From Salarchaeum japonicum (lineage in GTDB: Archaea; Halobacteriota; Halobacteria; Halobacteriales; Halobacteriaceae), in contig NZ_CP085324.1 of NCBI RefSeq assembly GCF_020614395.1, forward strand, positions 1,555,564 to 1,619,563: DNA of 64,000 nt, read 5' to 3'. The translations under genes were made by a program, and so were the position numbers. Below are positions 23,718 through 53,027 of this stretch, piece after piece; the first letter of the stretch is position 1; the number at the start of each line of letters is the position of its first letter. The notes below the pieces were generated by a model that worked only from the letters and a program-made list of their open reading frames with translations, had not been told where the DNA came from and made no database searches.

Positions 23718-23802
23718 GCGCGGGTCGCCAAGCCAGGCCAAAGGCGTAGCGCTTAGGACGCTATGGTGTAGACCTTCGCCGGTTCGAATCCGGTCCCGCG
23801 CA
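23718..23802 (+). tRNA. tRNA-Leu (anticodon UAG)
   Basis: Class II tRNA of 85 nt. Acceptor GCGCGGG pairs with CCCGCGC, and the D stem is GCC/GGC. The anticodon stem TAGCG/CGCTA encloses loop CTTAGGA, anticodon TAG. A long variable arm follows, then T arm GCCGG-TTCGAAT-CCGGT, with discriminator A. No intron is seen and CCA is not encoded. It is followed at once by a T4 run and by repeated copies of its own 3' end (see next entry). Confidence 0.93.
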
Positions 23803-24120
23803 TTTTCTGTCCGAGCGCCGCGAGGCCGAAAATCGCCGGAGTGGATTCGAACCAGCGTCAGACGTGCTCGCTCCGCTCCGCGCGCCTGACTGAGTTCGAA
23901 TCCGGTCCCGCGCATTCTACGACGAACGAAGTGAGGAGTGAATGCGCAATGAGTGGATTCGAGGTTAGCTGAGCGAGCGAAGCGAGTTCAGCGTTGGTTC
24001 GAATCCGGTCCCACGCATTTTCTGTCCGAGCACCGCGAGGGCGAAAATCGCCGGAGTAGATTCGAACTCAGTCAGACGAACGAAGTGAGTCTGGCGATAG
24101 TTCGAATCCGGTTCCGCGCA
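23803..24120 (+). repeat. Array of repeated tRNA-Leu 3' ends with hairpins
   Basis: No protein gene here. After the tRNA, three more forward copies of its T arm plus acceptor 3' strand end the units: 23894-23916, 23996-24020 and 24100-24120. The last two have one base changed each. Between them are degenerate inverted copies (about 23830-23853, 23940-23962 and 24043-24067) marked by GGATTCGA or GATTCGAAC. Each inverted/forward pair flanks a stem-loop (GTCAG/CTGAC; GCTGA/TCAGC; CAGAC/GTCTG). The segment after 23801 recurs after 24016 with few changes, so the unit is about 205-215 bp. Confidence 0.85.
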
Positions 24121-33387: not shown

Positions 33388-34457
33388 GCGCGTCCCCCGA
33401 CCGGGACGTGGACGTGGACGCGGAGTCCGACACCGACATCGAGACCGCCGAGGACACCGCCGACATCTCCACCGCGAACACGATGCGAGAACGCGCGGAC
33501 GAGAGCCACATCAAACTCCGCGTGCTGTTGAGCGCGAACCGCCTCCTCGTCGCCGGCGCGCTCGCCGTCTTCGTGTTCGTCTCGTTCGTCGCCGTCGGGA
33601 GCGTGAACGACCTCGCCGCGAACCTCGGCACGGGCGACACCAAAGCCACCATCTTCTCCACGATGCTCGGCGCAATCATCACCGGCACCACCCTCATCGT
33701 CACCATCAGCCAGCTCGTCATCTCCCAGGAGAACGGCCCGCTCGGCGACCAACACGACCGCATGAGCAACACGATGGACTTCCGCGAGTTCGTCGGCGAG
33801 ATGTACGGCCACCCCTCGCCCGTCGACCCCTCCGCGTTCCTCCGCGAACTCGTGGACGAAACCCAGCGCCGCGCCGAAGCCCTCCGCGACGCCGTCGCCG
33901 GCAGCGACAGCGACGACCTCCGCGAGGAAGTGGACGAGTTCACGGACAGCCTCACCGGGAACGCGGACGCCGTCCGCGACCAACTCGAAGGCGCGCAGTT
34001 CGGCGAATTCAGCGTCCTCCACGCCGCCCTCGACTTCAACTACGGCTGGAAGATATTCCAGGTCGAACGCCTCCAGAACGAGTACGCCGACGACGTCACC
34101 GACGACGCCGACCGCCTCCTCGACGACCTCCACACCGCCCTCTCCATGTTCGGCCCCGCCCGCGAACACATCAAGACCCTCTACTTCCAGTGGGCGCTCA
34201 TCGACCTCTCCCAGCTCATCCTCTACGTCTCCGTCCCCGCGCTCGTCGTCACCGGCGGCATGCTCGGCTTCTTCGGCACCGGCCCCGTCCCCGGCACCAC
34301 CCTCGGCGTCCAGAACGTCCTCCTCCTCGTCGCCGCCGCCTTCACCGTCTCCGTCTTCCCCTTCCTCCTCCTCGTCTCCTACATCGCCCGCATCGCCACC
34401 ATCGCCAAACGCACCCTCGCAATCGGCCCACTCATCCTCCGCCGCTCACAGCGATAA
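33384..34457 (+). CDS. Haloarchaeal membrane protein, unknown function
   Basis: A 357-residue protein. An acidic N-terminus (1-45) is followed by two hydrophobic helices (LLVAGALAVFVFVSFVAVG, FSTMLGAIITGTTLIVTISQLVIS). A soluble helical region of about 150 residues follows (FREFVGEMYGH...LLDDLHTALSMFGP), then two C-terminal helices (LSQLILYVSVPALVVTGGMLGFF, LLLVAAAFTVSVFPFLLLVSYIARI). The TM pattern resembles a homodimeric channel or a coiled-coil sensor, but no known domain is visible. It follows DUF4177 with a 4 nt overlap and ends in a clear terminator. Confidence 0.65.
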   Translation: MSASPDRDVDVDAESDTDIETAEDTADISTANTMRERADESHIKLRVLLSANRLLVAGALAVFVFVSFVAVGSVNDLAANLGTGDTKATIFSTMLGAIITGTTLIVTISQLVISQENGPLGDQHDRMSNTMDFREFVGEMYGHPSPVDPSAFLRELVDETQRRAEALRDAVAGSDSDDLREEVDEFTDSLTGNADAVRDQLEGAQFGEFSVLHAALDFNYGWKIFQVERLQNEYADDVTDDADRLLDDLHTALSMFGPAREHIKTLYFQWALIDLSQLILYVSVPALVVTGGMLGFFGTGPVPGTTLGVQNVLLLVAAAFTVSVFPFLLLVSYIARIATIAKRTLAIGPLILRRSQR

Positions 34458-34482
34458 AGCGGCGGAACGTCCAGTACTCCCG

Positions 34483-34514
34483 CCGCGCGAGCGAAGCGAG
34501 CGCGGGATGTTTTT
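34483..34514 (+). terminator. Stem-loop plus T5 terminator
   Basis: CCGCGC (34483-34488) pairs with GCGCGG (34500-34505) around a GAGCGAAGCGA-type loop. It is followed within 5 nt by TTTTT (34510-34514). It lies 25 bp after the membrane protein stop. Confidence 0.65.
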
Positions 34515-34572
34515 AGCGTAGCTTTTTGCGAGGAGTGGTGTGCGTAGCGCACCCGACGAAGTAAAAAGGTAC

Positions 34573-34676
34573 GAGCCAAGGGGGGGGGATTTGAACCTCA
34601 GTCACTCCGCTACGCTCCGTTCCCTGGTTCAGAATCCCACCTGTTGCTCTTCGTCCTCACTTCGTTCGGACAGAAG
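34573..34676 (-). repeat. tRNA-Thr 3'-end duplication module
   Basis: On the minus strand after tRNA-Thr, TTCTGTCCGA begins a hairpin (CTCTTC...GAAGAG around GTCC/GGAC, 34649-34680). Next comes a degenerate inverted T arm (GGATTCTGAACC region, about 34625-34640), then GACTGAG. A second forward copy of the tRNA tail (GGTTCAAATCCCCCCC, then CTTGGC) ends at 34573. A T5 run follows (34563-34567). The layout matches the Leu and Ser loci. Confidence 0.8.
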
Positions 34677-34750
34677 AGCCAAGGGGGGGATTTGAACCCC
34701 CGAATTCTCGATTACAAATCGAGTGCTTGAACCGCCCAAGCTCCCTTGGC
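34677..34750 (-). tRNA. tRNA-Thr (anticodon UGU)
   Basis: Class I tRNA. Acceptor GCCAAGG pairs with CCTTGGC, D stem GCTT/AAGC. The anticodon stem CTCGA/TCGAG holds loop TTTGTAA, anticodon TGT. T stem is GGGGG/CCCCC with loop TTCAAAT. Discriminator T, as expected for archaeal tRNA-Thr. No intron. A partial second copy of its 3' end lies downstream. Confidence 0.92.
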
Positions 34751-34761
34751 GCGAGTCGAGA

Positions 34762-35244
34762 TTAGCTCTCGGGGTTTGTGTGGGTATCGTTTTCCGCCGG
34801 TTTTTCGAGGATGACGCGGTGGGGCGCGTATCCCCGGGACTCGTAGAGGGCGCGGGCGGCGTCGTTGTCCGCCATCACGGCGATGGCAAGCGTGTCCGCC
34901 CCCCTGGCTTCGAGTTCGGTTTCGGCGGCGTCGAGGAGTCTGGAGCCGATACCCTGGTTTCGGTGCGGGGGTTCGACGTAGACGTTCTCGACGATGCCGC
35001 GGGTGGCGTCCTGGTCGTAGAGGCCGTCTTCGAGGTAGAAGGTCGCGAATCCGAGAATGTCGTCGTCGCGGGCGACGCGGAGCTGGTCGGCGGCGATTCG
35101 CTGGCCGAGCACGCCGCGGGCGGCGGCGCGGTTCTCGGCGGCGAGCAGGTGGGTTCCGTGGCGTCGCTGGCCTTCGACGAGCGCCGCCCACTGTTCGACG
35201 AGGGCGTCCAAGTCGTCGGTCGTCGCCGCCTCTATCGCGGTCAC
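34762..35244 (-). CDS. GNAT acetyltransferase
   Basis: A 160-residue GCN5-related N-acetyltransferase. The acetyl-CoA loop is VENVYVEPPHRNQGIGSRLLDAAETELEARG (Q/RxxGxG/A), followed by the beta-bulge and ADNDAARALYESRGY. It resembles RimI/PhnO-type enzymes acting on proteins or small amines. It overlaps pgk (4 nt, ATGA-like), so it is co-translated after pgk on the same strand. Confidence 0.88.
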   Translation of the reverse strand: MTAIEAATTDDLDALVEQWAALVEGQRRHGTHLLAAENRAAARGVLGQRIAADQLRVARDDDILGFATFYLEDGLYDQDATRGIVENVYVEPPHRNQGIGSRLLDAAETELEARGADTLAIAVMADNDAARALYESRGYAPHRVILEKPAENDTHTNPES

Positions 35245-40816: not shown

Positions 40817-40898
40817 GGTGAGGTGGCAGAGCGGCCTATTGCGCCGGTCTTGAAAACCGGTGGCGCAAGCCTCCTGGGTTCGAATCCCAGCCTCACCG
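40817..40898 (+). tRNA. tRNA-Ser (anticodon UGA)
   Basis: Class II tRNA of 82 nt. Acceptor GGTGAGG pairs with CCTCACC, D stem GCA/TGC. The anticodon stem CCGGT/ACCGG encloses CTTGAAA, anticodon TGA. A variable arm follows, then T stem CTGGG/CCCAG with loop TTCGAAT. Discriminator G, the serine identity base. No intron. Downstream is a hairpin and a second copy of its 3' end. Confidence 0.93.
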
Positions 40899-41040
40899 CA
40901 TTCTGCGCGAACAGCGACGAAGACTCGTGGGTCTTCGTCGCCCGTGAGCGCGAATCGAAGACGGGGATTCGAGCAGACGAGTCGCAGCGCGAACGACGTG
41001 AGCGACCGTCTCGGCCGAGTTCGAATCCCAGCCTCACCGC
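40899..41040 (+). repeat. tRNA-Ser 3'-end duplication module
   Basis: A perfect hairpin CGACGAAGAC/GTCTTCGTCG (40915-40940, 10 bp, 6-nt loop) follows the tRNA. Next come a degenerate inverted tail (about 40945-40970, GGGGATTCGAG), a second stem region, and a forward copy of the tRNA T arm and acceptor 3' strand (41019-41040). A T4 run (41042-41045) ends it. No coding sequence is supported here. Confidence 0.8.
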
Positions 41041-52952: not shown

Positions 52953-53027
52953 GGGCGCTTAGCTCAGCTTGGACAGAGCACTTGGCTTCGGACCAAGACG
53001 CCGCGGGTTCAAATCCTGCAGCGCCCA
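52953..53027 (+). tRNA. tRNA-Arg (anticodon UCG)
   Basis: Class I tRNA of 75 nt. Acceptor GGGCGCT pairs with AGCGCCC, D stem GCTC/GAGC. Anticodon stem CTTGG/CCAAG encloses CTTCGGA, anticodon TCG. T arm GCGGG-TTCAAAT-CCTGC, with discriminator A. No 3'-end duplication follows, unlike the other three tRNAs. The downstream gap to 53140 holds two short T runs (CCGTTTC, CCGTTTTG) and nothing else that I can support. Confidence 0.93.

Follow-up and report, generated by a model that had tools for sequence, protein, structure and literature searches.

Gene-free hairpin units bounded by local tRNA tails behind tRNA genes of Salarchaeum japonicum and other haloarchaea

On the minus strand of the window, by which we mean the whole 64,000-nucleotide stretch of Salarchaeum japonicum DNA analysed here, a gene for tRNA-Thr(TGT) occupies positions 34676..34750 (ARAGORN; Rfam RF00005, 58 bits), and 3' of it, from 34676 down to 34574, lies a unit of the order T - H1 - T' - H2 - T, in which T is the tRNA tail, H1 and H2 are hairpins 1 and 2, T' is an inverted degenerate tail and the final T is a forward copy of the tail. 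The proximal T, running from T-loop to discriminator, is part of the tRNA gene (34677..34697), and its end is overlapped by H1 (34646..34679), which by sequence and folding has an outer stem GCTCTTC/GAAGAGC and an inner part GTCC-GA-AC-GAA-GT-GA-GGAC. T' (about 34627..34649), assigned from the sequence and from a test of T' over units, is followed by H2 (34597..34626), whose CAGGGAACG..GCGGAGTGACYGAG type is common, on sequence comparison, to the Val-gac and Glu-ttc units of the same genome; these, not the Leu units, hold its nearest relatives there. The distal tail copy (34574..34596) equals the 21-nt tail of the tRNA except that its C run is longer by two Cs, which bring it to 23 nt. A T5 run stands immediately past the unit (34563..34567), and at this site CTCGTACCTTTTTACT is kept after the Thr distal tail in the sister species. 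The order given in the original prediction for this flank, namely tail, hairpin, inverted tail, stem, tail and T5 run, is thus borne out by minus-strand coordinates. In a scan of 34400-34800 with Rfam covariance models the tRNA alone scored above the gathering score, and the unit matched no family. Folded as free RNA, the Thr spacer and copy have a modest excess stability (z = -1.39, with 19 of 200 shuffles at least as stable). A convergent gene adjoins the Thr unit, and at the 3' end of this gene, on the plus strand opposite to the unit, we also noted a stand-alone G-A hairpin, CCGCGCGAGCGAAGCGAGCGCGG (34482-34505), one of the few intergenic G-A hairpins outside tRNA units in 464 kb.

Units of the same kind stand elsewhere in the window on the plus strand: three behind tRNA-Leu(TAG) (tRNA at 23718; units at 23803..24120, with distal copies at 23894-23914, 23997-24017 and 24100-24120) and one behind tRNA-Ser(TGA) (tRNA at 40817; unit at 40899..41039, with the inverted T-loop part at 40966-40974 and the distal copy at 41019-41039). 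The tRNA-Arg(tcg) gene at 52953 in the window is without a unit. Two words had been proposed as shared between the Leu and Thr units. The first, TTCTGTCCGA, is significant: 0.13 matches would be expected in the window, and the three present all fall in Leu or Thr units. GACTGAG, with four matches against 9.0 expected, is at chance level in the window, although both kinds of unit have it in the same position immediately ahead of the tail.

Our evidence on the wider occurrence of these units comes from a signature pattern and from direct tests of tails. For the latter, an own-tail copy was scored when the tail of a tRNA recurred with at most three edits 35-260 nt downstream of it. Such copies follow 18 of the 42 tRNAs of the S. 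japonicum genome and 12 of the 41 in the sister species, whose genome is the only other one of the genus searched; with up to four edits allowed, they follow 22 of 45 and 20 of 43 tRNAs in two genomes of a second genus (G002 and G008). Over all tRNAs examined, that is, the 181 of 187 with a readable tail, 89 have an own-tail copy at the three-edit limit; because this set includes loci picked by the pattern and is therefore enriched for units, only the counts for the two congeneric genomes are unbiased. One spurious tRNA call, the 'Ala-tgc' of locus L016, was left out before tail copies were counted. The controls gave 8 copies in 1517 swapped-tail tests and none in 179 upstream tests, and the Thr tail copy is not due to chance. 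Copies start at tRNA position 52/53 and end at position 73, and upstream of the start the agreement falls to about the level of swapped tails.

The original prediction also held that each tail is copied from the local tRNA. The match itself is clear: in 89% of 125 units the rank of the distal copy for the local tRNA falls within the top 1%, so that the opposite outcome, tails that do not follow their tRNA, was looked at and is not what we find. Copying, however, is a statement about how the match arose, and the tails may have been copied at insertion or left in place while hairpins were exchanged between them. (The 125 units, used here and in the hairpin analyses, are those of 132 that have a T' core.) T' follows the local tRNA less strictly than the distal copy does, with a median rank of 0.10 among the tails of other tRNAs. 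Where the distal copy has diverged, T' fits the local tRNA better in 40 units, the distal copy better in 9 and both equally in 15, which argues against tight selection on T'-T pairing; in these units such pairing finds no support as the selected feature. The unit behind Asn-gtt (L004) is an exception to tails following their tRNA: its distal tail departs from the sequence of the local tRNA at three positions and yet pairs better with its own T'.

The signature pattern, an inverted T-loop followed after 25-55 nt by a forward T-loop, was found in 225 of 242 Halobacteria genomes, and the reversed-pattern control found none. In a phylum-wide draw, 51 of 53 Halobacteria carried it as against 5 of 241 other genomes. 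Of 30 pattern loci examined, 25 directly follow a tRNA and copy its tail; the other 5 had no tRNA nearby. On these observations, the Thr module belongs, as one unit, to a family of gene-free arrays that stand at tRNA 3' ends across the haloarchaea in the order T - H1 - T' - H2 - T. The 17 haloarchaeal genomes free of the pattern include two of one genus (g3; G003 and G009) and two of another (g4; G014 and G244). In the second genus, arrays of at least four units stand behind Gly-gcc and Ser-tga (for example L225, L226 and L250), and long H1 hairpins are common to Leu and Val tRNAs. In one further genome (G021:C1:675640-675756) a T'-H2-T match recurs in identical form at a distance of 69 bp, giving a close tandem that resembles the Leu-tag array of the sister species, which is a perfect 72-nt triple tandem.

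Comparison of the two congeneric genomes at 41 orthologous tRNA pairs gave units in both members for 9 pairs, in one for 14 and in none for 18. At five of the one-sided cases (Asn, Arg-gcg, Tyr, Asp and Ile) we judged by eye that the empty site is clean, the outer flank continuing directly behind the unit-free tRNA; a flank-score test passed 9 of the 14, and Gly-ccc, Arg-cct, Ser-gga and Leu-caa were left out of the clean count. Glu-ctc offers a clean empty site in the second genus, where, of 8 one-sided cases, the flank test upheld just 1, against a null raised by flanks common to several tRNAs. A clean empty site may record either a gain or a precise loss between direct repeats. At Thr-tgt the outer flank is the same in the two sister species and each has a unit there, with different interiors, and the H2 of the sister resembles the H2 behind Ser-cga of S. 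japonicum. Some units are decayed. Judged from these sequence comparisons, units are present or absent at orthologous tRNAs, stand in tandem arrays of differing number and have had their interiors replaced.

The spacers were predicted to share ancestry or function, and this holds class-wide. A scan of 84,980 species for one H2 type returned 24 stretches, all haloarchaeal and from at least 10 named genera; 21 stand behind a same-strand tRNA and 3 lie at the edge of the sequence examined. The tRNAs that carry it are of six kinds (Arg-tcg, Arg-cct, Leu-taa, Lys-ctt, Lys-ttt and Val-gac), and clustering gave further H2 types behind different tRNAs. Among 101 units of four genomes in two genera, pairs of units behind different tRNAs with similar H2 number 71 in the forward and 0 in the reversed orientation, counts that are descriptive because unit pairs are not independent. 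Of the 13 pairs behind different tRNAs with similar H1, 6 share the 5-nt acceptor end, compared with 134 of 2607 (5%) of all pairs and 3 of the 71 H2-similar pairs; these too are descriptive counts. Sequence comparison shows H2 recurring behind different tRNAs and across genera, always in one orientation, with the tails remaining local.

The hairpins themselves have a distinct form. Over the 125 units, the tRNA strand has 113 G-A hairpins (stem - GA - 2 bp - loop - 2 bp - GA - stem) and the opposite strand has 3. In the motif GA-x-C-NNN-G-y-GA, positions x and y pair, with G-C 57, A-T 47 and C-G 13 against A-C 7 and G-T 8; these counts include related sequences more than once, and 136 distinct contexts give the same picture. 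The loop is GNA in about two thirds of these motifs, and C-GNA-G resembles a DNA mini-hairpin that is reportedly extraordinarily stable, a likeness that leaves single-stranded DNA and RNA indistinguishable here. Between genes of the S. japonicum genome such hairpins are rare, 10 in 464 kb on rough gene calls, at least 3 of which are recognisable tRNA units, and we rejected for this reason the reading that they are general haloarchaeal palindromes; inside called coding regions of the same 464 kb the G-A motifs number 32. The fixed orientation, the strand-limited G-A mismatches and the pair covariation together suggest additional selection on the hairpins, as single-strand structures with the polarity of the tRNA, most probably acting in the precursor trailer. 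Predicted folding agrees in part. The tail pairs of the tRNA form at 0.245 in the native arrangement, 0.141 without the distal tail and 0.182 with H2 flipped, so that the distal tail and the orientation of H2 are predicted to protect them. H1 pairs with the acceptor end of its own tRNA, and the folding predicted for the tRNA is better with H1 flipped (0.308, p = 0.06), which would be the opposite of an insulating role for H1; native and shuffled hairpins did not differ significantly in predicted tRNA folding (p = 0.09).

How might such units have come to stand behind so many tRNAs? Our preferred account, to which we give a little less than even weight, is that gene-free cassettes under selection for single-strand structure spread between tRNA loci, with the universal T-loop serving as their homology handle. 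H2 has this handle on both sides, as the T-loop word GTTCRAATC and as its inverse in T'. A nascent or broken DNA strand at one tRNA tail could pair with the handle of another array, copy the hairpin and then re-enter its own locus through the other handle, by microhomology template switching or short-tract conversion; the outcome would be a new H2 with the local tails kept on both sides, since a T-loop handle leaves the tails local. H1, bounded by acceptor-end sequence, would move mostly between tRNAs with the same 3' end, and the direct tail repeats would permit tandem growth and clean loss. Pairing across T'-H2-T in the precursor trailer might keep T' off the tRNA's own T-arm. We infer the moving mechanism, as well as any benefit to the cell. 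Against this exchange model it must be said that a handle of 9-12 bp offers little length for ordinary homologous recombination. Moreover, if template switching acted by itself, H2 would be inverted in half of the events, and selection or a strand-specific process must therefore account for the fixed orientation; we favour selection in the trailer over a strand-specific enzyme, without proof. A bolder reading, which seems to us possible though it calls for more reserve than the exchange model, would make the units a new class of mobile gene-free cassettes confined to haloarchaeal tRNA 3' ends, folding as single-strand hairpins, landing at the T-loop, adopting the host tail in both orientations at each landing and jumping among all tRNA genes without harm.

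The fixed orientation (71 pairs against 0) would follow directly if a strand-specific enzyme, an integron-like tyrosine recombinase or an HUH transposase, acted on the folded hairpins and the T-loop to insert the unit and duplicate the tail, and such a dedicated mobile element would also fit the covarying hairpins, the clean empty sites and the same H2 in distant genera. We nevertheless consider it rather doubtful, for the units, at ~100 nt too short to hold a gene, indeed hold none, and simple insertion of a cassette would bring the donor's tail, yet the tails are local. By position, no integrase stands beside the arrays: places of PF00589 compared by eye with the array-bearing tRNAs of S. 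japonicum and its sister, the two genomes covered, revealed no linkage. The H2 type had no match in viral contigs, although the search used one exact pattern and is a weak test; on this result we set aside a virus as the carrier of the units.

Slightly more doubtful again, in our estimate, is a role as functional RNA, in which the tRNA precursor would have a structured trailer that adjusts 3' maturation, termination or the supply of tRNA, with T' switching between the tRNA's own tail and the distal copy. The strand-limited, covarying G-A hairpins speak for it, as do the T5 run kept after the Thr unit in the sister species and the predicted protection of tRNA folding by the distal tail. It sits poorly, however, with units at under half of the tRNAs in both sister genomes, with the differences between these species at orthologous tRNAs, with the decay of some units and with the ordinary fold of the Thr unit. 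Very improbable, we think, is an origin as relics of ordinary integrative elements whose successive integrations at the tRNA 3' end left att copies of the tail. A direct repeat of the 3' part of the tRNA is indeed present and, like the repeats of many tRNA att sites, starts in the T-loop. This origin predicts neither the inverted tail at a fixed place, the two covarying hairpins and the single orientation, nor the same H2 behind six tRNA types, and where relics should have an arbitrary interior without a fixed fold, the units have shared H2 types, covariation and a fixed order. These features, with no integrase adjacent to arrays in the two genomes, led us to reject it; the sister species does have an integrase 0.9 kb behind its Glu-ctc tRNA, but that tRNA is without a unit. 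Retro-copying from a modified tRNA was also set aside, as the copy takes in everything from position 53 and shows no trace of stopping at 58.

Whichever route applies, a fast-changing, class-wide structure that stands behind a third to half of the tRNA genes of the four genomes counted seems to have gone undescribed: in the full-text literature searched, which does not cover subscription journals, no prior account of tRNA-tail arrays was evident. The arrays offer a natural system for studying how essential genes stay intact when short hairpins move between them, and whether archaeal tRNA trailers are under selection. Annotation is affected as well, since a tail copy may pass for an att site or a partial tRNA. 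The genetics of Haloferax and Halobacterium make deletion, RNA and mutation-accumulation tests feasible.

Among known systems, the tRNA att sites of tyrosine integrases, of both SSV and bacterial types, consist of a direct repeat of the 3' part of the tRNA from the T-loop, and the units resemble them and their relics in this repeat and in leaving the tRNA intact; they differ in their gene-free interior of ~100 nt with an inverted tail and two covarying hairpins, in sharing hairpins between different tRNAs and in having no linked integrase in the two genomes compared. Integron attC sites and cassettes are likewise strand-specific folded hairpins, standing in arrays and exchanged in fixed orientation, whereas our units are without genes, no integron integrase was seen among the PF00589 places of the two genomes compared and their tails follow the local target. 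The repetitive or double hairpin elements of mitochondria are similarly tiny, gene-free and seemingly mobile hairpin units, but they are not known to copy tails or to be limited to tRNA 3' ends. Elements copied over intergenic DNA generally, such as REP, MITE or PATE repeats, differ from the H2 type scanned here, with 21 of its 24 stretches behind tRNAs and the other 3 at the edge of the sequence examined. Closest in host are the MITEs and PATEs of Haloquadratum, small mobile repeats classed by terminal repeats or near-terminal palindromes (PMC3119063); as far as the portion of that source consulted goes, they too are short haloarchaeal repeats that hold no genes, contain palindromes and vary in presence from strain to strain, and while no tie to tRNA tails is described in it, the ends of our units are the tail of the local tRNA.
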